DNA of 64,000 bases from Sycon ciliatum (Eukaryota; Porifera; Calcarea; Leucosolenida; Sycettidae): positions 14,050,231-14,114,230 of the forward strand of contig NC_088647.1 of NCBI RefSeq assembly GCF_964019385.1, read 5' to 3'. The notes under the pieces are model-generated. The model did not search any database. It was not told where the DNA came from and saw only the letters and a list, made by a program, of their open reading frames with translations. Below, piece by piece: positions 5,480 through 60,139 of this stretch (its first letter is position 1; each line of letters starts with the position of its first letter). Position numbers and translations under genes: made by a program.

Positions 5480-8234
5480 CCAGAATCTTCAGCAGTGTCC
5501 TTGGCTGCTGCCTTGCCACCAGCTATCTGCGGCTTCTTCCTCTCTTTCTGAATGATGAAACCCTGTGATGTGACAAGACAAGGGAAATACACACGATCAC
5601 GCCATATCATTAAATACGTCACGTGCACAGATCCACAAACAGACATACAAGCGAACACATCGACAACGGGTTTGCCAATGTTTCCTCAAATACACTGGTA
5701 CATGTGTTAGCAAGGCAGGCAAGCACAGAGTCAGTACATGAGTGAAGTCAGTTCAGAACCACACATTGACCAAGCATCATAGATAGGGCGTCATGCACCA
5801 CCGCAGTGCGTAAATGACACACTTCCATTTTAATGTTTATGAAGACCACAAGCACCAGGTTAGGGTCTAGAGGGGCGCTTTTCATCTCCTGGCATCAGAA
5901 TACTAAAATATCAATCATTCACCAAGACCTTGCAGACTACCACTCCTACTGCATTCGAACACCGCACATCAAAGACAAAACATGACACATGTACACACGC
6001 ACACATACGCACGGATGAAGACATGGGACAAAGAAATGTCCTGCACGATTTTTAGGACACAGACATGCCTCGGTCAGTGTCCCCCAAAGATCGACAGATT
6101 TTAGTGTCCGTCCGCCTTTACAGCGAGCGCGTATTCAGACAAGAGGCGCCCACCAAGATTATAAACGTTTTAGGCAGCATCACAAATGCAGCTGACCCCT
6201 CGCGAGGTCTGGAGTGGTGTCCACAAAGTCTTGGAAAGTCGTCATGATAGTATTTCTCATCATTTGCCAACTGAGGAAAAGCCTAATGTTGGTGCTGGGC
6301 ACATACAAAAGTACAGTGCTGCTAAACGAAAACCGATCGCATGAGTCAAGTACTCGTCGGGCGCTGTGCAGCCCTAGAGCTGAGATCACTGGGATGCTCA
6401 CTGGTGCATGGCGCAAAGCTGACTCACTCGATCGGATCTCATTGAGCAGCACTGCACAATGCAGCAGAGTGCTGAAAAGCACTTAGACTGCATTAGTACG
6501 TCAACAGATCTGCTACATACCTGGGGCTGAGAGCCGACGTCTTGCATGAGTTTCTCGGCGGCACTCATAGCAGTGAAGAGCTGCACTTGGTGCTCCTCTA
6601 CACAACACACATCACCAACAGCACAGCACAGAGCAGAGCAGGAGAGATTTGCTTGAGTTGTTCTTGCAAGAATCGCCTAGCTTTTTTCTCCTTCCCATGC
6701 ATAGAAGTGCAGAAAACTCATGCCCATACACCAACAATAATGCCCTACTACTAAACACACCAACCTGCCAAGAAGGTCATTTCAGCCGTGATCTTTGTGG
6801 ACAGAGTATGACCGACCATCCGGAGGCAATGGTCCATGAGTTGTGGCCCGAACACTGCACGAAACAAAGCCAAGATAACAACATACAGTGATATTATAGT
6901 GCCAATAATAGAAAAAGCCACCCAATGATGAACAGAAGAAATGCTTCTCATGTAGCATTGCAAATAAATTAGACAGTACAGGTCCAGTCCAGATACCAAC
7001 ATATACTGCAAAACAGGTCATTACTTTAGCGCCGGTGATGTTTTAGCGATTTTAGCGAAAGGAGTGCTTTTCGCTAAAGTTTTACCGCGCCAATCGAAAT
7101 TTTGCATGTACAGTACTAGGCATCTTTCTTTTTGAAATTTGTATCGCTAAAATATTTCATCGCGAATTGGTCCTGATTCAGAAAATACAAAAACATTTAC
7201 CCGCTGAAATTAGCCGTTCTACAGCAACCTCCAGATATGATATCCAAGGCACTCAAGCTTCCGATTTTTTTTATTATTCACGGTTCACGTGAGACTCGGT
7301 TAGATCTATATATATATACATGTATAGAGAGAGGCCGAGTTTTCCGCATCCGTAGGAACGCCACCACCCTTCAAGGATCAAGGCGCAGATGCAGCTCCTA
7401 AAGCGGTGGGAGGTGAGTAGATCAGCTCACCAGCATGTGGTCAAAGACCGAAAATCCCATTCACTGCATCCATGTTTTCCTCGTGCCAGGCCACGAGTTC
7501 CCAATTAACTGTGTGGCTTCCGATTGCCAGCATAATAATGCATATACGAACACATCACACTTCCCAGGTAATCACACTCCAATAGAGTGGTTTCACACCT
7601 ATTACATGTTATTTACAACACAAGACCATACGAGACAGCCATGTTGATTCCAACCCTGTATTTTTGGAACGTAAGAAGGTCCTGCATATCTGTTCTGGGT
7701 ATTTACTATTTACGATCCCAACGCAAATCCATTACACGCACTGTGCTTATGATGGAGACTCTTATATTAGGGCATGCCCACCGGAGAGGACAGCCACTCG
7801 TAGTTTCACATACATACATGTACAAATTACAGGTATTACAAGCTAACACACTTGTATTTGTACTTGTTGCTCACTGCCAAAACTGATCACGTGGGTCTCC
7901 CCGGGAGAGGGGAGAGAGACTCAAAAGGAATCTTAGAAAGATGACTCAATTGGCTATTGAACCGCCCAACGGCCGACACCCCCTGAAATCCCCAAAACTC
8001 TGGGTGGACTTCAAAATGATCCCACTTATGGGCTCACCACGCCTCAGTAAGTGGGTGAGGACAAGGCGCAGAAAGAGGATTGACGGCATCATGGTATCCG
8101 TCCCGGGATCCAACTGCAGTTACCCTTGCCCCCAGTGAAGGTAATACTTGCTACTAGTGTGGGTGGCTAAATCAAAGTGGATCTGATATAAGCGTCACTA
8201 GCACCATTGATTACACAAGAGTTAATCTAGCTAA

Positions 8235-11400: not shown

Positions 11401-14268
11401 ATCAACAAGTGAGAGAACACAGCAATAATGGCACAAACAACATTCGCGGCAAGGACGCCAACAGAAGCAGCACCAATACCAGCAAACAAAGAGACTTGAC
11501 ATGGTGCAATTGTTCAGCTGTCAGTGGACACAAATCCAGTAAGTGTAGTGCTGTACTGATGCTGCTATATACACTTTGACCTGTACAAACATGTACACAT
11601 CCATGTACGACAAGCAGCTAAAACAAAGCGGCTAACGCTGGGCACACCATGCAAGAACCCGGCCACTCCATACGGACCATAGATTTCACAGACTGAACCA
11701 GTAGCGCCAGCAAAGCCCTGGCAGGAACCAAGGATCCGATATCAGTGGTACCAAGAGTGCGCAACTCGACGACTCTCCAGCCCATGGCAGAATTTTTGTA
11801 TGACATCAGTCATTGGGCTTACTCATGCCATAAAGCGCAGCTAGAGATTAAAGTACAAATACTACAGTGCTAGCAACTGAAATCCAACACCCTGAGCGGT
11901 GGGTTCACATTCTTTGCGATGTGAGCGCACAGGGGGTCGGATTTCAGTTGCCAGCACTGTAGCAACTTGTACATCGCAGCTGTGGTAGTCGGAGCAGAAC
12001 AACGAACAGTAGATCAATGCGTCCTGAACACGAGGAACTGACACAGTGTATCCACAAGACAAGCGCTGAGAAGCATACTCACTTGATTCTACTTCTTCTG
12101 GCAAAAAAATAACGCACGATGAAAAATTCCGCCGTGGGTGACCTCCACCGCAGCTCGAGATAGTAGTCGCACACTCTTGGTGGTACAGTCAGACCTCGCT
12201 TCAACCGCACACATCCGTTTTCCACAAAAAAATATCCGGATAGGCGAGGGAACCGGATAATCGAACACCAGTTATGTTGGATGCATCACGTATGTTGTAA
12301 ATCTGTAACCAGCTATTTTCTTGCGGATGGCGAGGGATCCGGATAAAAGAGGACCGGATAAGCGAGGTCGTACTGTACCACCCATGCCCTTGCTACCAAC
12401 GACGCCACAGCACTGGTGCCATTGGGAGTCATGGCTGGGTTTGAGTGACCATGAACATGTAGCATGAACATCACTTTCGGACTTGCGCCCAACACCAGAG
12501 CAGGCTGCTCCAACACAAAAACGGTCCAAGACATGACGGACAGGCCACCTAAGCATATTTGCATTCGGTTCGGTATAAGAATAACAATACACGTACAGTG
12601 CAGCCTCTCCTTCTCCGCACCTCCCGCACCCAGGCACCATGTAAGCAACCAGGCACCCTGTCAGCAAGTGAATGTAGTCAAATCTTGTAATTTTCTACGT
12701 CTTCGTGGCGGTCAGCTCAACTACTGCACCACATAGAGGATTTTATTATGCAAAAGACGTTACTTCAGTAACGTCTGGCGCTAGCCAGGGTCCACACAGC
12801 TTTAATTCCGTGTTTGTGTGCTTGTGCTGTCGGCATGCCTGGCGCTATCCCGTACCTGTCCCGTACCGTACCATCAAAGACAGCTGGCCACAATATTCAA
12901 ATAGGGCTTTCAAATGAAAGATCATAACGTGAAGCAATTTGGAAGAATGAGTATGTATACGAAGTGTATCGGGGGAATGCATGCAGGGCGATAGTGCGGG
13001 TTCAAATCCTAGGTTATGTCTTGAAAAAAAAATAGAAGAAATGAAAAATTTATAACATCCCTATGCTTTTTGCCTAGGTCATCAAGGTGGTAGACAGTGT
13101 CGTATTACCCTCAAATGCAAAGAGAAAGTTTATTTCTTTCGCTCAGGGCCCTACGCTATGCTTTTTTGCCTAGCTCATCATGCATGTTATTCAAACAGAT
13201 GGAAACTTTTCGCAATACATGTACAATGATATAGCCGATCAGTTCGTTGTGGTATGGTTGGGCATTGTAGTCGTCATGGTCGACGTAAAACACTATTTAC
13301 ATACACAAACTCGGGGAGCAAAAGTCTCTCTGTCCCATCAGCTGCCACATACCAACTAAATACAAAAAGCATAGCATAGGGCCCTGAGCTTCCAAGCTCT
13401 ATCGTTTATTCAGACATCTCCTGGCACGCCAAAAGACGGCCAATTAATTAAACCTGACTCACTTGTGAGGTCTGCATTCGCCACTAAAGTGAAAAGGCAT
13501 AGTGGTGGCCTGCGGAAGCGAAGGCTACTGTACAGGCAGAAAATTTCGTCGGTCAATAATTTCGTCTAACTCCAAAGAAAGGGATTTCGTCCGGTTGAAA
13601 ATTTAGTCCATGGACTATAACAGTGTATTGAAACGCTGGACAAATCGACATTCGTCCGTCATTTAATTTAGTCCCAAAGCTCCTTGGACGAAAAAGACGA
13701 AATTAAATTCCAGACGAATATTTCTGCTTGTACAGTATATAGCTTGGGTGTTTCTGAACATTCAAGCGATGCTAACGCGGATCCCGCGAATATTATTAAT
13801 TGTCATTAGGAAAATACAAGTTACACGGTCAGTGTCGTGCAATGTTATCGCAAGAGCTGATTGTTTAGTAACTGGTGGTGTTAGTGGACATTTAATTTAT
13901 AGCGTAACTAGTAGTTTCTTGGTCCTTTTTTCTTTATTATAAATGTGTTTTTATTGTTCGTGCTGATGGTGATACATGTATTCCTGAAGACTGTCACAAA
14001 AAAAACATTTCAATCTGTACAACTCTTTGCTCCAATGCACTGCGGGCATGGCATGTATACATGTATGGGATGAATGAGTGTATTCCTACATCTCCAACTT
14101 TACAAACCATTATGAGAAGCCTGGTGAAGGAAACACAACGCAGCGGAAATTTAAAAGTCACAGTAGAACGAGGGAAATGTAAAGGAAACAGGGACACGGC
14201 ACTTACGTCAACTCCTGAAGTTCAGCTACAACAGCTCGAACATCTAAAGCAGTAAACCGGGACTTCAT
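1..14268 (-). CDS. NEMF: NEMF (Rqc2 / NFACT family) ribosome quality control factor, 18 exons, 3' part missing
   Basis: Orthologue of NEMF/Rqc2, which binds stalled 60S subunits carrying peptidyl-tRNA, recruits the E3 ligase Listerin and adds C-terminal tails to nascent chains. Exons in coding order: 14207-14268, 11319-11387, 10124-10226, 9739-9864, 8770-8945, 8547-8591, 6765-6854, 6521-6597, 5432-5562, 5017-5092, 4123-4185, 3801-3878, 2762-2809, 2358-2518, 1839-1932, 1134-1201, 625-688 and <1-158. They join in phase, exon 5 excepted, to about 562 residues. The NFACT-N start [17 protein letters not shown], the segment [14 protein letters not shown] and the catalytic D97-R98 pair ([12 protein letters not shown]) are visible. 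A coiled-coil middle region follows ([15 protein letters not shown]), then the start of NFACT-R ([21 protein letters not shown]). The rest of NFACT-R and NFACT-C lie beyond the left edge. Introns are full of microsatellites and TIR elements. Confidence 0.95.
803..997. mobile_element. TA-flanked TIR element (MITE) in a NEMF intron
   Basis: Left end CCGTAATGTTGCGTATTAAA is matched in inverted form by the right end (TTTAATACAAGACACTACGG). TA lies directly outside both ends, as expected of Tc1/mariner-type insertions. There is no coding capacity, and several internal AGGCTT motifs repeat. Confidence 0.65.
1423..1704. mobile_element. TA-flanked TIR element with internal minisatellite
   Basis: The termini (left TGCATTTTCCGG, right inverse CCGTATTTTTCCAGAG) and the subterminal 'aagccaca/gcggctta' motifs are inverted relative to each other, and TA flanks both ends. 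This terminal type is widespread in animal genomes. A 24-bp tandem repeat lies inside. Confidence 0.55.
1528..1644. repeat. 24-bp minisatellite, almost five copies
   Basis: The unit begins CAGGGTGGATGTCTGTATTT and is essentially identical in every copy, with the last one slightly truncated. It contains the dyad CTGTATTTCATACAG. The period is a multiple of three, so it gives a spurious repeated peptide MSVFHTGW in one frame. I do not regard that as a gene. Confidence 0.85.
2252..2343. repeat. NEMF: (CA)n microsatellite beside a NEMF splice donor
   Basis: A perfect CA run fills about 2294-2342, and CA-rich sequence precedes it. On the minus strand it becomes a UG repeat starting about 15 nt inside the intron, after the donor of exon 14 (exon edge at 2358). 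Confidence 0.9.
2639..2720. repeat. (AG)n microsatellite
   Basis: A nearly perfect AG run with one AAAG interruption, in the NEMF intron between exons 13 and 14. It lies on the donor side of exon 13 (2762-2809). Confidence 0.9.
4123..4185 (-). CDS. NEMF: NEMF exon 11, with a microsatellite as its polypyrimidine tract
   Basis: Twenty-one codons, [21 protein letters not shown], from the start of the coiled-coil middle domain. On the minus strand the intron ends in about 17 TG units followed by about 21 TC units and CCAG, directly abutting the exon. The dinucleotide repeat is therefore the polypyrimidine tract of this acceptor. Confidence 0.9.
4189..4264. repeat. Compound (GA)n(CA)n microsatellite
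   Basis: GA units occupy 4189-4230 and CA units 4231-4264. On the minus strand this reads (TG)n(TC)n and ends at the 3' splice site of NEMF exon 11. Confidence 0.92.
4390..4627. mobile_element. TIR element with long inverted ends
   Basis: The left end GGGTCGTCGCAAAAGTTTT, followed by GTCGTCCCTGAAACGAACAT, is repeated in inverted form at the right end (ATGTTCGTTTCAGGGACGAC, then AAAACTTTTGCGACGACCC). The inverted ends are about 50 bp each, with a poly(G) tract in the centre. No open frame of note and no clear target duplication. Confidence 0.6.
5169..5243. repeat. (GA)n microsatellite
   Basis: GA run with one GTGA interruption, in the NEMF intron between exons 9 and 10. Confidence 0.9.
5432..5562 (-). 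CDS. NEMF: NEMF exon 9 with a ten-alanine trinucleotide repeat
   Basis: Encodes [16 protein letters not shown], a Lys/Ala-rich linker, then ten GCT-coded alanines and DIHV. It matches the family segment between NFACT-N and the coiled-coil middle, where homologues have a short variable linker. The pure (GCT)n run is a coding microsatellite and probably varies in length. The donor is GTAAGT just left of 5432, and the next exon (5017-5092) continues [11 protein letters not shown]. Confidence 0.88.
5880..6210. repeat. Dispersed repeat copy A with a possible transposase remnant
   Basis: About 320 bp shared in direct orientation with 9272-9600, both in NEMF introns. The conserved core reads on the plus strand [19 protein letters not shown], then a short segment ending in ITNAAD, in the same frame in both copies. 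Residue pattern and length recall the N-terminal helix-turn-helix of DDE-type transposases, but this is inference. Confidence 0.55.
7941..8115. repeat. Dispersed repeat, copies also at 17640-17860 (inverted) and near 3265-3355
   Basis: The segment around GATGACTCAATTGGCTATTG, with a downstream 'gggctcacca' motif and GTGGGTGAGGACAAGGCGCA, reappears inverted in 17640-17860. A diverged partial copy lies near 3265-3355. No TIRs identified. Confidence 0.5.
8237..8290. repeat. (AC)n microsatellite
   Basis: Perfect AC run in a NEMF intron. A second AC run follows at 8457-8491, about 55 bp from the donor of exon 6. Confidence 0.9.
8770..8945 (-). CDS. NEMF: NEMF exon 5 with a one-base frameshift
   Basis: Part of the NFACT-N region. 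It reads in frame from [16 protein letters not shown] to AEPVTRE and then meets TGA. Dropping one G from the run of four at 8796-8799 restores GELIEILHH. That aligns residue for residue with the family, and the exon then joins exon 6 ([15 protein letters not shown]) in phase through a donor at 8769/8768. A tempting GTGAGC donor at 8796-8791 exists, but using it gives no in-phase join to exon 6. I read this as an extra base in a homopolymer, either a sequencing error or a real damaging allele, and cannot tell which. Confidence 0.75.
9272..9600. repeat. Dispersed repeat copy B with a possible transposase remnant
   Basis: Direct-orientation partner of 5880-6210, about 3.4 kb away in another NEMF intron. 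The shared frame survives in both, with only a few differences (for example KIIN against KIRD) before each diverges and stops. Confidence 0.55.
10364..10675. mobile_element. TIR element, ends AGAGGTTGCGCACAACGAAA
   Basis: The left end AGAGGTTGCGCACAACGAAA and the right end inverse match for about 27 bp. An internal partial copy of the right end occurs near 10578-10600. There is no transposase. It sits in the NEMF intron between exons 2 and 3, and its ends resemble those of 28472-28813 (GAGAGGTTCCGCA). Confidence 0.6.
11105..11284. mobile_element. TIR element, ends TAGAGTGGTTT
   Basis: The left end TAGAGTGGTTTAACATCTCT and the right end inverse agree over about 29 bp, including GTCACATGA. A related left end occurs at 7582, with downstream similarity through CAGCCATGTTGATTCCAAC, so the family has at least two copies in NEMF introns. 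Confidence 0.55.
11865..11959. mobile_element. Short TA-flanked MITE, ends CAGTGCTAGCAACTGAAATC
   Basis: Ninety-five bp with about 30-bp inverted ends and TA on both sides. Same family as 17212-17351, with a diverged relative in 3407-3597. Confidence 0.7.
12186..12375. mobile_element. Pogo-like TA-flanked MITE (CAGTCAGACCTCGCTT)
   Basis: 190 bp. The ends CAGTCAGACCTCGCTT and (inverted) CAGTACGACCTCGCTTATCC carry repeated TATCCGG motifs, with TA on both sides. A second copy lies in inverse orientation at 53039-53243. CAGT-type ends with TA duplications fit pogo/Tigger-like members of Tc1/mariner. Confidence 0.7.
13528..13735. mobile_element. TA-flanked MITE, ends CTGTACAGGCAGAAAATTTC
   Basis: 208 bp. 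The right end inverse (CTGTACAAGCAGAAATATTC) matches the left, with several TTTCGTC/GACGAAA motifs inside and TA on both sides. It lies in the first NEMF intron. Confidence 0.65.
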
Positions 14269-17476: not shown

Positions 17477-17515
17477 CAAGAGTACAGCTGTGATAATATT
17501 ACGACTGTACTCTTG
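17477..17515. mobile_element. 39-bp inverted-repeat insertion-like unit, CAAGAGT type
   Basis: Starts CAAGAGTACAG and ends CTGTACTCTTG, the same termini as the CAAGAGT family, but the flanking seven bases do not match. It is either an eroded ultra-short copy or a chance hairpin. Confidence 0.35.
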
Positions 17516-18257: not shown

Positions 18258-18887
18258 CAAGAGTACATAAACCAGAGTGTGCAACTGTGCAATCAGATCT
18301 GAAACAGCGCAGTTCGTGCTCTACGTTGCCCTGATGTGTGGGAACTGAACTATTATTATCGATATGTGCAATCATGTATTTAGCTCCTCATTGATTTTTT
18401 ACCAGGTGTGGGCCATCCCCTGATTTCATAGGTGCCAGACATTTTACGTTTTTCATTCACTATTTTTTTCATATAGCGTGGTTGACCGATTCCTGATATG
18501 GACACGTGTACGTGCACGGAAAATATGCGTACTTTGAAATGTAAAAAAAATGAGGTCAGCCAAGCCGCGACTTGCGTACAGCTCACATTTTTCGTGTTTC
18601 ACAGCCCAGAAATCAGCCAAGTTTCCATGATTTTAGACGTCCTGTTTTAGGATTTTGGTGTTTTGGTGTGACTGCGTACGCTGCGTACATCCGCTGGCAA
18701 GTAAATTCAGCAGGCCATCCGTATCAAAAAACCGAAATCGGGACAAACTCAGTGATCTGCACCAACGTGACTGGTTACGCAACTTTTCACCGTACCTGTG
18801 GCTTACCATGCTGTCAGAAATGACACACTGCACGGATTACGCTCCCACAGGAACCATCCTGAGTTGCACACTCGTTATGTACTCTTG
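18258..18887. mobile_element. CAAGAGT-family element, 630 bp
   Basis: The left end CAAGAGTACATAAACCAGAG is followed by TGTGCAAC. The right end is its inverse (GAGTTGCACACTC, then TTATGTACTCTTG). Seven-base flanks are ACGGTTG and ACGGTGG, a duplication with one mismatch. No convincing transposase frame. It lies just beyond the 3' end of DDOST. Confidence 0.7.
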
Positions 18888-20708: not shown

Positions 20709-22796
20709 GCATTCTAAAATAGTCAAATGTACAATGTGGAGAGAAAATTATATACATGAACGCTCTGCCTTGGGCCGGAGCGCTATCTCGCAGAAAGGAC
20801 CCCAGACACTAAGGGGCCGTCTGAGGTTACCGATTGTTTTTACAAAACGAAACGTTTTAGCAAGAGTTCATAACCCCCAAGAGTGTGCAACGGGCATAGA
20901 CCCAGCGCTCGGCGAAATTCCTACATTACGTCATGCGCAGCTTGTCATCCGAGGTAAATTTGGGTTCTTTGCGATTTATGGAAACTATACCCTGAACCGC
21001 TCCTAACTCAAGGCTGTAGCCTCGACTTTTCGAAGCTTTTTTTGAAGACATTTCGGACGTACAAGTCGTACTTTCTCAAAAACAAACTCTTTCTCCAAGA
21101 ATCCATGGACATCGCGACAGGAAGAAGTGAGGACGCTGCTAAAAATATTGCATTGCCGTCGAGGACAATCATTCTGATAGCTGTGCAACTCAGCCGCGCA
21201 AAAATGCTCCTTCGACGTATTCTCTCAAGATCCTCAACCATTTGAAATCATCTTCGAGGAAAGCACCGGAAATATGCCGATGGCCTGGGGAAGAAATTGT
21301 TCTTGGAGACTGACTGCACTGGTGAAAGAAGAAGGCCATGAAGAATCACCATTGCATCGAAAAAATAAATAGTTTTGTCTTTACAATCGTGTGCTTTGTT
21401 TCACTTTTGCTTCTTGAGGCTCAGACTCAGACTAGAATCGCAGTTTAGGCAGTTTACCCTGGGGAAGCATCCTGGTTTGACTGTAAATTTTAGAAGAATT
21501 CATCGGCGTGACTCATCGCACTGCACCAAAAATGACGCAATGAAGGAATTCCGCCGAGCGGGCTTCCATACAGGGACTGATCAGGAGTTGCACACTCTTG
21601 GTTTTAGTATTTTCAGCCCCACCCACCCACCTTTTCTGCAGGTAAAGCAAATTCCGATAAAATATTGATGTCAATTTTCGACACCCAGAAGCAACTGGGC
21701 ATTCACCATCTGCATTCAATAATTATTATTTTCAAAACGAAACTCTATCAAACCCACCCACCCCCAAACGAAAACTTTTCGTTTTGAAAATATTATTGGT
21801 AACCTTAGTCCACCTCACGCCACATACAGATCTAATTCGCTAAACTTGGCAGGAGATCGACAGAAGCACGTAGCACTACTGCCACTAGCAACGCGGAACA
21901 CCAGACACGCTTATCCATACAAATGAATAAGCACAATGTTCCCATCCCCATACTAGGCACTGCTGGCTACAAGGTTGCAGATGCATGTTCACTGCAGCCT
22001 GTCTGCACTGCATGGTGCATCACCCCTTTCCAAGTGTTAGTCTAACCCACCACTCAAGTATTCATGTACAGCCGCCTTGCCCTGTCTGCACTGCATGGTG
22101 CATGACCCCTTTCCAAGTGTTAGTCTAACCCACCACTCAAGTATTCATGTACAGCCGCCTTGCCCTGGGTTTTGATACAGCATGCACGTTGCTTACCATA
22201 CTTCCACAGATTTTATAAGGCACATCCAATTCTAAGTCCCCCCCCCCCCCCCCTGCCCCTTTTAAAGTCACTATCACATACTAGTACAGTCCATTCAGAA
22301 AAAGATGATATCCTAACGCTTTTGGCCATAAATGGGTCAAATTTGAGTTTTTTAAACATTTTTTTCTGCAATCCCTCATGGAATGCTCTTCCGATTACGT
22401 TTCTGAAGTCCATTTCTCCGAAAAGCAAGCAAAATTAAACAAGAATAGGATTTCGGCCAGGTTTTGTCTTGTAAGCACTGAATTGGGAAAGGCCATGAAA
22501 ATCCAATCCGTTTCACTCGATTTTTATCACTGCATTGTCCGGTTCGAACCCCAGATAAGGTTCCTTTTTCGGACCCTTTTTCTAGCCTCAAATTTCGCGG
22601 CACTGCACTGTGTACAATCAAGAGTACATAACCCCCCAGAGTGTGAAACTCCCACATACCCAGCTGTCCCGACAGAATTTCAAGTTGACGTCATTATTTA
22701 TGACACAATGCTCCTTGCACCAGTGATTCTTCGCTTCATCGGATTTACAGGCAAGGAGAAGGCATCCTTGCCTGTAAATCTGATGAAGTAAAATAG

Positions 22797-32624: not shown

Positions 32625-33112
32625 TCTCCAGGGAGATTTGCTGGTGGCGATATCCCCACAAGAGGCAATTCTCTGTTATTGCAAATATTGCAATAAATAC
32701 AGCGTGAAAACATCTGCTGCACTTGCACTCCACATACCAAAATCAGTTGGCTATGCAGCGTCATCATCGAAAAACTCAGGAAAAAGCGAAAAGCGATACG
32801 GGAAGCTACCCAAGCGAGCGACGTAGCCATAACAATCAACATGGCGAGAGACAGCCATGACAACATGCGACGCTGACGTACATTCTCGTCGCACGCGGTG
32901 CACGCGGTGCATGCAGAGCATTGTTGTTTCGAGAAAGCTTTTTTTTGTGTGTCGTGCTGAGTGTGAATGAAATGAAAAGTTAGTTGTAGCCTTACTTCTG
33001 ATTTGATTTTCATCTCCCTTTTGCTTTACCAAACCAGGCAATGGTTTTGCTGCTGTGAGATCTCTTGTTCTTGTGAGTAGATCCACCGTGTGAGGTCGAG
33101 AACAGAACAAAG
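32625..33112. promoter_or_regulatory. Divergent promoter region between DDOST and XRN2
   Basis: 488 bp separate the start codons. Sequence near 32835-32850 contains CAACATGGCG, a YY1-type motif common in housekeeping promoters. The CG-containing stretch 32868-32915 includes TGACGTA and a tandem of GCACGCGGT. There is no TATA box. Function is inferred from geometry and motifs. Confidence 0.6.
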
Positions 33113-36100
33113 ATGGGAGTTCCTGCTTTTTTTCGCTGGCTCTCACGCAAGTATGCGTCAATTGTGGTGCATTGTCGGGAGGAGAAAGCCAGAGAGGTGA
33201 ACGGTGTAAAGATCCCTGTCGATACCACTGCTCCTAATCCCAATGACACCGAGTTTGATAACTTGTACCTGGATATGAATGGCATCATCCATCCATGCTG
33301 TCATCCTGAGGATCGACCAGCGCCGAAAAATGAGGATGAAATGTTTGAGCTGATCTTTGAATACATTGACCGGATCTTCGCCATTGTGAGGCCCAGGAAG
33401 GTGCTGTACATGGCTATTGACGGCGTGGCACCACGTGCAAAGATGAACCAGCAGCGCTCTAGGCGTTTCCGCGCCTCCAAGGAGTCTGTGGACAAGGTCA
33501 ATGATATTGAACGCATCCGGCGAGAGCTTCAGGACAAGGGTTGTCACCTGCCCCCACCCAAAGAGAAGAAAGAGCACTTTGATTCGAACTGTATTACGCC
33601 TGGCACCGAGTTCATGGCCAACCTAGCTGTTGCCCTGCGCTACTATGTGGCTCACCGGCTGAATAATGATCCGGGATGGAAGAATGTCAAAGTGATTTTG
33701 TCCGATGCGAACAGCCCCGGTGAGGGAGAGCACAAGATCATGGATTATATTCGTCATCAGCGATCGCAACCCGACCACGACCCCAACACACATCACTGCT
33801 TGTACGGCGCTGATGCTGACTTGATCATGCTGGGGCTAGCAACTCACGAGCCCCAGTTCACTATTCTGAGAGAAGAATTCAAGCCCGGCCAGGTGGTGAG
33901 GACGTGCGACATCTGCGGGCAACCTGGCCATGAGATGGCGGAGTGTGAAGGACTGCCCAAGGAGAAAATCAACACCGACGGCTTTGATCCAATGCCGGTT
34001 GCCGAAAAGGAGTTCATCTTCATCCGCCTGTGCGTTCTGCGCGAGTACTTGGAGAAAACCCTTCGTTTAGACGGTTTGACATTCCCGTTTGACTTTGAAC
34101 GTGCACTGGACGACTGGGTGTTCCTTTGCTTCTTCGTCGGCAACGACTTCTTGCCTCACCTTCCATCACTGGAGATCCGTGAAGGTGCTATTGACCGGCT
34201 GGTGGGTATCTACAAGGATGTAGTTCCCCGGTGCGGTGACTACCTCACTAAGGCCGGTCATGTCAATCTGCGCCAGGTGCAAATGTTGATGAAGGCGCTG
34301 GGAGAGATGGAAGATTCCATTTTCAAGAAGCGTCAGGAAGACGACAAGGAGTTTCGGCGGCGCGCCCGTGACCGTAAGCGCCAGGAGAAGCTTCGCCGTG
34401 CTGGCCGCGAAGTAGCGCCGGTGTTCATTCACGGAGGATCACTAGCTCCAACGCCTATCGGTCAGACGCCAACGCCAGTGCACGGTGCAAAGCAAGTGGC
34501 GGCTGATGCACGCATGCAGCGCTTGCCCACCACACCCTCAGGACCCGCCAGCGAGGCAACAACACCAAGCAGCAACACAGCGGCCGCCGCCGACATCCGC
34601 TCGCAACTGCGTGCAATCAGGAACCAGTCTGGCGAATCGCCGTCTTCTCAGGCAACTACGCCTGGCGGTGTGTCTGTTCCCGGTGATTCACCAAGCTCAG
34701 GCGGCGTCAAGCGCAAGCATAATCAAGTTGACGAGGACGAGGATGATGCGCCACCGGACAATGTCCGCCTGTGGGAAGAAGGGTGGCGTGCCAGGTACTA
34801 TGAGCACAAGTTTGGCATAGACGCACTGGAGGATGTCGTGGAGTACAACCGCTTCAGACGCGAAGTCGCCAATGCCTACGTTCAAGGTTTGTGCTGGGTG
34901 CTGGCTTACTACTACCAAGGATGTCCCAGCTGGAAGTGGTACTATCCATTTCACTACGCCCCGTTTGCGTCCGACTTCCCCGACATCACGGAGCTGGACG
35001 TTGCCTTTGAGGCCAATACCCAGCCCTTCAATCCGCTTGAGCAGTTGATGGGCGTCTTCCCAGCAGCCAGTGGCAAGTTTCTGCCTGAGTCATGGCGCAC
35101 GTTGATGTCTTCTGACGAGTCGCCCATTATTGACTTCTACCCGACAGATTTCAAAATCGATCTGAACGGCAAGAAGTTTGCCTGGATGGGCGTAGCACTG
35201 CTTCCGTTTGTGGATGAGAAACGACTGCTGGGCGCTTTGGCCGGGGTCTATGATGACCTGTCTCCGGAGGAGAAGTTCCGCAACAGCCGTGGTAGTGACC
35301 GTCTCTGCTTCCACCGCAGCAACTCAGCGTTTGACTTTGTCAACACGGCTGTGAACGAGTGCACAGATGGAGAGGAGGAGGCGAAGCCGGTTGCCTTGAA
35401 TGCAAAGCAAGCCCAGGGCATGGGCGGACTGGTTTGGAAGTGCAAGGATGACGTGACCATTGGTGGAGTTGTTGAGGCTCGCCCGTCTACCCTGGAGTCG
35501 GTCGACAACAACCAGTCCATATGCGTTCACTTCATCGACCCACCAGTAAGCGAAGGTTACACCTTTCCTGCGTGCATGCTAAAGAATGCGCAACTTCCCG
35601 GGAAGGTGTTGAAACCAGAAGATCATGACGTGGCGCAGCAGGGTGGCCGACGGGGTGGTCGTGGGGGATATCGTCCGCAAATGGGATTCACTCCGCGCAA
35701 CAACCAGGCACACCGCGACGCGTCCACCGCCAACCGCTTCATCAGAAACTCGATGCAGGGCGGAACAGAATCGCACGACGGCCGACGCTTCACGCCCACA
35801 CACTACAACCAGCGCGGCGGTTTCGGCCGTGGTGGTGGTGGCTACGGCCGCGGTGGCAGTGTCAGCGTGCCCAACTCTCCCCAGTACTGGGGCCACCATC
35901 AGCAGCAGCAGCAACCGTATGATCAGCGACACCACCAATACGACCAGCGGCAACATCATGATCCGCGACAGCAGCAGCATCATCATCACCAGCAGCAGCA
36001 GTACGGTCAGCATGGTGGCAATAATCGGCATAGCTATGGTGGTAATAGCGGCGGTGGCGGTGCCGGAGTTGCTGGTTACAGCCCATGGGCACATCACACG

Positions 36101-37128
36101 CCTAGAGGCGGCGGCGGTCGCGGCGGCGGTGGCGGTGACTATGGCAACGCCGGCAGCTATAGCGCCGGACGTGGTGGCTATCGGGGCGGTAACCGAGGCG
36201 GCGGCTCCCCGTACCAGCAATCTCCACAGTCTCAAGGTGAGTGTGCATAATGTTTTTATGCCTGAGGCCATGGGCATGTCTAACGTTTATATTCTCCTAG
36301 CTGTGCATGTCAGTATTGGCTTTTGGTGTGTACTAGTGTGTATGTGTGTGCACGGATATACTGGTACTCGTACTGTTGCGGACATTGAAATCCGTTGAGA
36401 AGTCAAGCGGCCACGGGCCACTGGCCGTGCAGCCGTGACCACTACAGGTCCTACTCGTACAGTGTTACAGTGTGTGTACACGCTAAGCAAGTAAGGACGT
36501 CGGCCCCAGTCATTCCACCGGACTTCTATGTCCCCACAATAGTACGGCCAACAGGCACCCAGGGGTGTTCTAAAAAGAACTTCTCCACCCAATACAGAAA
36601 TGCCATTGGCAGTGAGTGAATAGCATTGGCCCATGTGATCGTAAACTATTCTTCTTCAGACAGCTACTTGGAATGGGCAGGAACAGGGACATGAACTATT
36701 TACGAAGAAAAACATGGGTGTGGAACTGTGGATACATTGGCTGCATAGATTCTGTGAACCGTCATAATTATGGCAGCAGATCTAACCTCAGGAGTGATGG
36801 CATATCACTGGTGAAGAATGAGCTTAGCACAGCTAAGATACTTGATTGGATTTGAAGAGTCCCTGCTTCCTGCAGGTTGTACAGATACATTTCACGTGCC
36901 TGTTACTGCACCAAGTCCTTTGCTCAACCAATAGGCAATCCATTTCTGAGTACTAGTACTGTGTGGGTACTTCCTCAAGTGACAAAGCATGTTGTGTGTT
37001 GATTTGGTGTGTGTCTGCGTGTTGTCAATGTTGCTGTCACTCGTGCTGCATGTCCAGGACAATATGGTGGCTATCAGAACCAACGGTACCAGCAGCAGCA
37101 GCAGTCACCCTACAACCAGTACAAGTAA
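33113..37128 (+). CDS. XRN2: XRN2 / Rat1 nuclear 5'-3' exoribonuclease, two coding exons
   Basis: Processive 5'-3' RNase of the nucleus, acting in transcription termination and rRNA and snoRNA processing. Coding exons are 33113-36236 and 37058-37128, joined in phase to 1064 residues. Start MGVPAFFRWLSRKY is the family signature. Active-site segments are LYLDMNGIIHPC (D54), YMAIDGVAPRAKMNQQRSRR, SDANSPGEGEHK (about 197-208) and YGADADLIMLG (D234, D236). A CCHC zinc knuckle (C265, C268, H273, C278) separates it from XRN1. A low-complexity linker (about 430-560) precedes the second conserved half, and the tail is RGG-, Gln- and His-rich, ending SPYNQYK. Continuing past the donor at 36237 would read to TAA within three codons (ECA), which is an intron read-through and not the true end. 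Only one intron interrupts the coding sequence. Confidence 0.96.
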
Positions 37129-39217: not shown

Positions 39218-39255
39218 CAGGGAGTCGTAAATATACGGTATTTTACGACTCCCTG
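39218..39255. mobile_element. 38-bp palindromic insertion, CAGGGAGTCGTA type
   Basis: Begins CAGGGAGTCGTAAA and ends with its exact inverse. The six bases GAAGAC directly flank both sides (39212-39217 and 39256-39261). Same termini as 47166-47191 and 57041-57062. Confidence 0.7.
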
Positions 39256-39469
39256 GAAGACAATATTCCATGCCACCGCACACTACGGCTATTCGCGGAG
39301 TGCTGGAGGTTTGTGATGCTACTCAGACTCGCCGGTATTAGTACACGTTGACCAAACCAACCAGTTCATGACTTTCAAAGTCAACTTGTAGTCCTTTGTT
39401 GGTGTTTTGGTTGTCAGATAAGTTTAGACCTAGAATTCCAAACTTCGGTGTGGATCATACTCATACCAG

Positions 39470-39505
39470 CAAGAGTCCATAAACATGTCGCTGGGTGCAC
39501 TCTTG
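39470..39505. mobile_element. 36-bp ultra-short CAAGAGT-family insertion
   Basis: Begins CAAGAGTCCATAA and ends GTGCACTCTTG, like the terminal bases of the long family members. ATACCAG flanks both sides exactly (39463-39469 and 39506-39512). Confidence 0.75.
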
Positions 39506-39661
39506 ATACCAGTAGGAGGAACACATTTGGGTATGGTTGTGGAGGTTCTAATCTGCTTCATGCTCATATCCCCTTGCAGGATGGCCACTGAATGTGCTGT
39601 TGTCAGCCGACAAAATCCACGCAGAACATCTGATATTGGCTGAGGAACTCATGCGTACCAC

Positions 39662-39680
39662 CAAGAGTTATGAACTCTTG
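39662..39680. mobile_element. 19-bp ultra-short CAAGAGT-family insertion
   Basis: The whole insert is CAAGAGTTATGAACTCTTG, two terminal octamers around a three-base centre. GTACCAC flanks both sides exactly (39655-39661 and 39681-39687). Confidence 0.7.
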
Positions 39681-39776
39681 GTACCACCGTGGTTTGGCGT
39701 GGGCTTGAGTTTCCATGTCACTGGGTGCAGTTAGTGCATTGTTGCAGGAATAATTTCATTGTACATGTACATGATT

Positions 39777-39864
39777 GTACATGAGTGTATGAAGTAATGT
39801 ACATGAGTGTATGAAGTAATGTACATGAGTGTATGAAGTAATGTACATGAGTGTATGAAGTAAT
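39777..39864. repeat. 22-bp tandem repeat, four identical copies
   Basis: Unit GTACATGAGTGTATGAAGTA plus AT. It starts inside a cluster of GTACATG motifs and may have grown from them. Confidence 0.9.
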
Positions 39865-40695
39865 GTAGAATTGCTACAGAAAGATATACAATGTGGGTAA
39901 GGCCACCCTTTGTTAATTCATTGTTTAACGTCCTTTTTTTCGCGAAAAGGTACGCGGGAGGGCGGAAAAAAATACAAAAGCCCATTCCAAAAACTGGAAA
40001 CCCCAATCAAACATTTTGACCAGTAAAGCATGTGATATATACAATATATCTGGGTCTAACGGCACTTGCAGGCATAGAACAACACTCTTTGATGGTACAT
40101 TGGAGCACATGCCTGATGAATCCAACAAAACAGGTACATAGCATGGAGTTAGCATGTCATGAATTCATTACATCTGGATTTTTACTAGGACACACACCGC
40201 GTACCGTACGATATTTAAAAGCCAACAAAAAAGAAAAAGAACACAAGACAAAGGCATGCCCGGGAGGCAAGATTATAAGTTTAAGGTCATGATCGGCACA
40301 CTGTGAAACTACACAATCATGTATTAACAACTTCGCATATTATTGGTACTAGTACTACTACTTTCTTGTTTTTTTTCCGGTCGGAGGCAAAAAGGTACGC
40401 GGGCGCGGACGTTAAACAACGAAAAAAGAAAGGGTGGCCTAATCAATACTCCCCGGTGTTGCACAGCTGGAGGTACAGTGTGTAGCCCCATACGTATGCA
40501 TGTACACCGTGCATGTAAAATTGTTTTGATCAAAGATGATAATTATTTTGATTGTGGTGCAAGGTTGGACTCAGTACCGACTGAAGGGCACATGCCATCA
40601 AGGGTGGACTAGAGATAGAAGTCAGTGCCTTGAAGTTGAAGAGTGAGGGGTGGACTAGAGACCTGAATTGATGTCAGTCACAAGAGTGAAGAGCA

Positions 40696-46306: not shown

Positions 46307-60139
<13,833 letters not shown>

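Follow-up and report, generated by a model that had tools for sequence, protein, structure and literature searches.

Two short inserts in the window

Within the window, by which we mean the whole 64,000-nucleotide stretch of Sycon ciliatum DNA analysed here, positions 39463-39512 read ATACCAG, CAAGAGTCCATAAACATGTCGCTGGGTGCACTCTTG, ATACCAG, and positions 39655-39687 read GTACCAC, CAAGAGTTATGAACTCTTG, GTACCAC. The initial annotation had described these as two CAAGAGT...ACTCTTG inserts of 36 and 19 bp, both flanked by exact 7-bp duplications, and this was borne out at 39470-39505 and 39662-39680. An XRN2-like 5'-3' exoribonuclease occupies one long open frame at 33077-36250, approximately 3.2 kb upstream of the inserts, with a GTGAGT near 36237 that resembles a splice donor; a short tandem repeat with a 22-bp unit (TGTACATGAGTGTATGAAGTAA) lies at 39776-39885, just downstream of the 19-bp insert. 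The features of the two inserts, labelled according to the reading argued below, are as follows:

39463..39469, no strand assigned: 7-bp target duplication ATACCAG, left copy (direct reading and flank scan)
39470..39505, no strand assigned: probable excision footprint of 36 bp, with filler between left arm CAAGAGTCCATAAAC and right arm TGCACTCTTG
39506..39512, no strand assigned: 7-bp target duplication ATACCAG, right copy
39655..39661, no strand assigned: 7-bp target duplication GTACCAC, left copy
39662..39680, no strand assigned: probable excision footprint of 19 bp, its 8-nt and 14-nt arms having 3 nt in common
39681..39687, no strand assigned: 7-bp target duplication GTACCAC, right copy

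The window was also scanned blindly for any insert of 16-60 bp bounded by perfect 7-bp inverted ends and a perfect duplication of 6-9 bp. Six inserts qualified: the 36-bp and 19-bp ones, two of a second family, CAGGGAGT, and two that are apparently due to chance. When all CAAGAGT/ACTCTTG pairs lying 14-4000 bp apart were considered, matching 7-bp flanks were found in five (428, 630, 740, 36 and 19 bp, the 630-bp pair with one mismatch) and a flank match at 5, 6, 8, 9 or 10 bp in none. The window's third short pair, at 17477-17515 and 39 bp long, showed no flank match, with four of the seven positions differing.

Longer elements and full ends

Both the CAAGAGT ends and the 7-bp duplication length are common to the short inserts and to longer elements of the window, as had been annotated. 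The size range originally given for the latter, 303-740 bp, was recovered in part: elements of 428, 630 and 740 bp are present, and no 303-bp element was found.

11752..12179, + strand: 428-bp CAAGAGT element, exact duplication GTGGTAC, inner-type ends only (CAAGAGTGCGCAACTC on the left)
18258..18887, + strand: CAAGAGT element of 630 bp, duplication copies ACGGTTG and ACGGTGG differing at one position
20861..21600, + strand: non-autonomous CAAGAGT element of 740 bp, duplication GTTTTAG

Long copies have ends of the form CAAGAGT-N-CATAA, followed by a C-rich or ACC spacer and then by AGAGTGTGCAAC; a second copy of the end motif lies approximately 17-19 nt inside such full ends, adjoining the outer unit, and the known CAAGAGT ends span approximately 30-36 bp, in which this motif occurs twice. 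Genome-wide, 2553 + 2529 full ends were counted versus 0 in the reversed control. For the 740-bp family, of which 40 copies were scored out of 222 candidates, the outer unit comprised exactly 17 nt beyond the inner motif in 36 of the 40. In the window's own 740-bp element, exactly these outer 17 nt are missing on the right, where an exact 7-bp duplication is nevertheless present, as though the element had used its inner motif copy as the end on that side. Its left 128 bp are 88% identical to the 5' end of an 803-aa transposase element on contig C1.

Transposase associated with CAAGAGT ends

The Pfam profile PF21787 (TNP-like_RNaseH_N, the RNase H domain of P transposases) matched in none of 14 controls but at 44 places in the genome, representing at least two lineages; PF12017 matched neither the genome nor the 14 controls and is consequently uninformative. 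Several of the P-type matches had equal frame lengths and E-values (983 aa four times, and 1002, 839 and 883 aa three times each) and may therefore be recent copies.

The higher-scoring P-type proteins (loci L045-L050) were rejected as the source of the CAAGAGT elements: no framing CAAGAGT ends were present within approximately 1.5 kb on each side, or within a longer distance for three of them, and a lineage of 803-889 aa was therefore examined instead. In all four fetched loci of this lineage, a full CAAGAGT end was found upstream of the open frame, at 233, 394, 419 and 651 bp. One element, encoding the 889-aa transposase, is complete, with both ends and the duplication GTATCAT (C14:16444594-16450612, 6019 bp); the far end of the other three was not found within the DNA examined.

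All four proteins of the lineage matched PF21787. A profile built from seven proteins (these four and three other P-type proteins) found the P transposase structures 6p5a/6pe2 with an E-value of 3.5e-9, the next PDB match reaching only 0.077, and a phmmer search of PDB with the 889-aa protein alone gave no match. Residues D465, D568 and E831 are invariant in all seven proteins, three of which belong to other lineages, and we take them to be the catalytic D, D and E from the alignment and general knowledge of such enzymes. The GTP-binding domain PF21788 was not reported in the four lineage proteins and scored below the cut-off in two of the three proteins of other lineages; a THAP domain was not matched in the seven open frames, upstream of which further exons may lie. 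Given a P-type transposase inside one complete element and the profile match to 6p5a/6pe2, the CAAGAGT elements are, judging by sequence, P-superfamily transposons.

Genome-wide counts and target duplications

The genome searched consists of 313 contigs totalling 538 Mb. It contains at least 5000 CAAGAGT-ACTCTTG pairs in the size range 18-44 bp, compared to 93 for the reversed-pattern control, with 1023 versus 83 at 45-74 bp and 502 versus 32 at 75-104 bp; these totals are pattern counts, and duplications were checked in a sample only. The size distribution, which the initial annotation had put forward as a check, thus contains the excess of very short copies. Among the matches listed for C1:1-7.04 Mb, 50, 11 and 3 places fell in the three size bins in the same order, and composites having an end in common with a short pair accounted for 4 of 11 places at 45-74 bp and 1 of 3 at 75-104 bp. 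Inspection by eye of 50 listed places of 45-74 bp revealed a further internal CAAGAG or CTCTTG in 23, no further internal end in the other 27, which are not plain composites, and the inner motif in three.

These data bear on the reading originally proposed, according to which internal deletion during gap repair would give rise to near-minimal transposons of 19-60 bp that are still able to insert. Retention of the ends and of 7-bp duplications speaks for such elements, as do the continuing counts above 44 bp and the 27 listed places that have no further internal end; the 23 places with internal CAAGAG or CTCTTG, however, are rows of scars or nested pieces as judged by eye.

Target duplications were assessed in a locus sample consisting of the window and 48 from among the 50 places listed first at 18-44 bp (two places at C1:7037569 were left out), which represents one end of one chromosome. 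Out of 56 CAAGAGT/ACTCTTG pairs 14-60 bp long, 23 had an exact 7-bp duplication and 33 had one with at most one mismatch, so that the flank match anticipated at other loci was recovered in these and failed in the remaining 23. Because a random-position control matched at a rate of 2.5% (11160/443500), an outcome that we attribute to tandem repeats within the loci, the comparison was made with other duplication lengths instead, and none of the same 56 pairs had an exact flank match at 4-6 or 8-12 bp. Some of the 23 pairs without a matching duplication, to which the window's 39-bp pair belongs, were composite, or lay within host repeats or palindromes; others may be decayed copies. Short CAAGAGT palindromes with no duplication, whose near flanks look like inverted repeats, were noted at L014, L015 and L016 (37-bp copies) and at L035:151-192. 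The consensus of the target, derived from 26 duplications with one 7-mer entered twice from two loci, is GTANTAC, with T at position 2 and A at position 6 in 23 each and position 4 free.

For one 32-bp CAAGAGT footprint (locus L028, C1:4422620-4422651), the window itself contains a paralogous empty site:

7359..7481, + strand: paralogous empty site for the 32-bp footprint, 82% identity

When the joined flanks of the footprint were compared to this site, one base was missing at the junction, and neither an insert nor a second duplication was present.

Arm anatomy of the short inserts

The arms of 33 footprints measured 8-19 nt, none being longer than 19 nt, and longest arms of 16, 17, 18 and 19 nt all occurred. 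Full-tail joins with an exact duplication were seen at 34 bp (17 + 17, L034), 32 bp (16 + 16, L021) and 38 bp (19 + 19, L041), while the 19-bp window insert, whose 8-nt and 14-nt arms overlap by 3 nt, exemplifies a join at a short match. The inner motif was absent from all 35 duplication-flanked footprints, both window inserts included, and was present at one listed place outside the sample (C1:7037569-7037605). Twelve of the 35 footprints are long enough to contain an arm of at least 25 nt; uniformly distributed internal breakpoints predict 5.35 such arms, and the probability of observing none is 0.0003.

Drosophila P transposase cuts one strand at the element end and the other 17 bp inside (PMC7776569); the excision products described by Chan et al. 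2010 (PMC2895639) consist of a duplication, up to 17 nt of the element, micro-homology or filler, up to 17 nt again and the second duplication. The 36-bp and 19-bp inserts have this arrangement of duplication, arm, arm and duplication, with arms no longer than the stagger, and they do not keep the whole terminal repeat by which a MITE or a near-minimal transposon would be recognised, the inner motif being part of 5082 full ends. Since the arms end where a P-type staggered cut would fall, we consider both inserts to be, very probably, excision footprints of P-superfamily transposons.

The same measurements tell against near-minimal transposons, given that arms end at or below 19 nt and that the inner motif is missing from every footprint in which internal deletion should often have left it. 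Moreover, as P transposase has binding sites located inside the element ends (PMC7776569), copies of 19 bp should, by analogy, be immobile. We regard the origin by internal deletion as highly improbable, and would speak of 'excision footprints' rather than of near-minimal insertions that arose by internal deletion.

Formation of the footprints could then be pictured as follows. An element with CAAGAGT ends would insert at each site, creating the 7-bp target duplication, and transposase would later excise it by cutting one strand at the outer end and the other approximately 17-19 nt inside, beside the inner motif copy. A single-stranded tail equal to the element's outer 17-19 nt would remain on each flank, and end joining would trim the tails, pair them via short matches or fill in with copied DNA, the product being duplication, arm, optional filler, arm and duplication. 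The upper limit on arm length, taken with the 17-nt outer unit, points to a 17-nt-class stagger made by the CAAGAGT transposase; the cut position, excision as opposed to failed insertion, and the repair route are what we infer from the anatomy.

The 36-bp footprint contains filler for which a nearby template can be proposed:

39484..39499, + strand: 16-nt match within the 36-bp footprint, comprising the filler together with 1 nt of left-arm and 4 nt of right-arm sequence; one mismatch to 39714-39729
39714..39729, + strand: proposed template of the filler

The filler segment and its match are 209 bp apart. With one mismatch allowed, the match was equalled in none of 200 shuffles; with exact matching only, it was not significant (p = 0.31). 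Copying was significant in one of eight fillers tested with one mismatch allowed and in none of 12 by exact matching, this one included, so that templating was not supported as a general rule. The 36-bp footprint fits a templated insert of the kind described in PMC2895639, and leaves the general rule unproven.

A second family with the same pattern

Pairs of the CAGGGAGT family 20-46 bp in length were counted 5522 times genome-wide versus once for the reversed pattern, and the commonest length among the matches listed was 38 bp, or 19 + 19 (15/50). Full ends with the inner word GGGAGAGGACACG numbered 174 + 179 (0 in the control), and in 100 out of 100 listed full ends this word stood at exactly 19 nt; where listed ends form pairs, most are separated by approximately 1.2-5 kb. 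A 19-nt arm followed by a base other than G was present at 386 + 418 places, with continuations that varied by eye among those listed. Six pairs of this family fell in the locus sample: three had an 8-bp duplication (one of them mismatched), one had a 7-bp duplication and two had none. The following members were recognised in the window:

39218..39255, no strand assigned: 38-bp CAGGGAGT insert, flank match of 6 bp only (GAAGAC)
47166..47191, no strand assigned: putative 26-bp CAGGGAGT footprint, 8-bp duplication GTTAGGAA
57041..57062, no strand assigned: putative decayed 22-bp CAGGGAGT footprint, right end ACTCCTTG, 8-bp duplication TTCTTGAC (by eye)

The family shows the footprint pattern with 19-nt arms and, as far as sequence patterns can tell, the same footprint logic. 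The earlier suggestion that more than one lineage yields tiny copies is borne out insofar as a second family has them too, stripped of their status as near-minimal insertions.

A few perfect palindromes of 34-38 bp, such as the 38-bp CAGGGAGT one, might alternatively spread as units in themselves, and identical 38-bp palindromes do recur among the listed CAGGGAGT pairs, as do identical CAAGAGT copies (L010, L011 and L012). The latter three, however, have common flanks and were thus copied within a larger repeat, many junctions differ from one another by eye, and potential sources are present in the form of CAGGGAGT full ends that contain the inner word. Self-movement of palindromes has even less to recommend it than internal deletion, and we think it scarcely credible.

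Rows of probable scars on one target

Genome-wide, ACTCTTG was followed by CAAGAGT within 30 bp at 1177 places, compared to 62 in the control, and the spacing was exactly 7 in 22 of the 50 places listed. At C1:18750370-18750506, four different units are separated three times by CTCATAT (read between units), and at L041 (151-215) two units alternate with three copies of GTTGTAG. Another row of different footprints on one 7-bp target was noted at C1:9139288-9139358. As the units within rows differ, simple tandem duplication is disfavoured, and we prefer an explanation in which elements were repeatedly inserted into, and excised from, one target.

The rows also weigh on aborted insertion, in which the element ends are joined to the target and the middle is lost at once. 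A duplication with short arms would be expected in this case too, but aborted joining alone does not explain the arm ceiling, and rows of different scars on one target need repeated insertion and loss; of all the alternatives discussed, this is the one we believe least.

Excision footprints in such numbers lead to a broader proposal, which we hold to be evenly poised between right and wrong. The genome would preserve an archive of approximately 10,000 P-type excisions from at least two families, with the transposase returning to its own scars and building rows of up to four footprints. The end motif would be repeated one stagger inside (at 17 nt for CAAGAGT elements of the 740-bp family and at 19 nt for CAGGGAGT), placing both nicks at the same word, and elements could adopt the inner word as a new end, as in 20861-21600, which lacks exactly 17 nt.

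Implications and comparison with known systems

If thousands of these scars are natural, germ-line end joining (micro-homology, fillers, full-tail joining) becomes readable from sequence, over evolutionary time and outside flies. Transposon turnover becomes measurable from the number of scars relative to that of surviving ends (5522 short CAGGGAGT pairs versus 353 full ends of the one type searched), and target preference can be tested where scars stand in rows on one target. MITEs are short, non-coding elements with inverted ends and a target duplication, a description that the 428-740 bp copies of the window fit; the short inserts examined differ in having no inner part of the terminal repeat (0/35), and annotators should be warned that excision footprints could be misfiled as tiny MITEs.

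Zebrafish Pdre2/THAP9 likewise has a P-type transposase with D, D and E catalytic residues, and excision has been shown for Pdre2 (PMC10983969). It differs in its 13-bp ends (PMC7776569), and in its 8-bp duplication and THAP protein (PMC10983969); according to the latter paper, Pdre2/THAP9 excision in fly cells gave larger flank deletions than those of the fly enzyme. Galileo, also of the P superfamily, has a 7-bp duplication with the consensus GTAGTAC (PMC2775673), which is compatible with GTANTAC here. Its ends are long and internally repetitive (PMC3573991), whereas those of the CAAGAGT elements extend over approximately 30-36 bp with the motif repeated once, 17-19 nt inside.

There is a close likeness with the Drosophila P excision products, which, according to PMC2895639, have flanking duplications, up to 17 nt retained per end, loss at micro-homology and templated fillers. 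A literature search, covering few subscription journals and hence a weak sign of novelty, found no paper on natural P-type footprints at genome scale. The Drosophila products were made in an assay, at one site and with 8-bp duplications, whereas those described here are natural and, by pattern count, number thousands per genome; CAAGAGT duplications are 7 bp, arms reach 19 nt and scars form rows at one target. P excision scars as such are already known from the Drosophila assays, and it is the presence of thousands of natural ones in a single genome that may be new.
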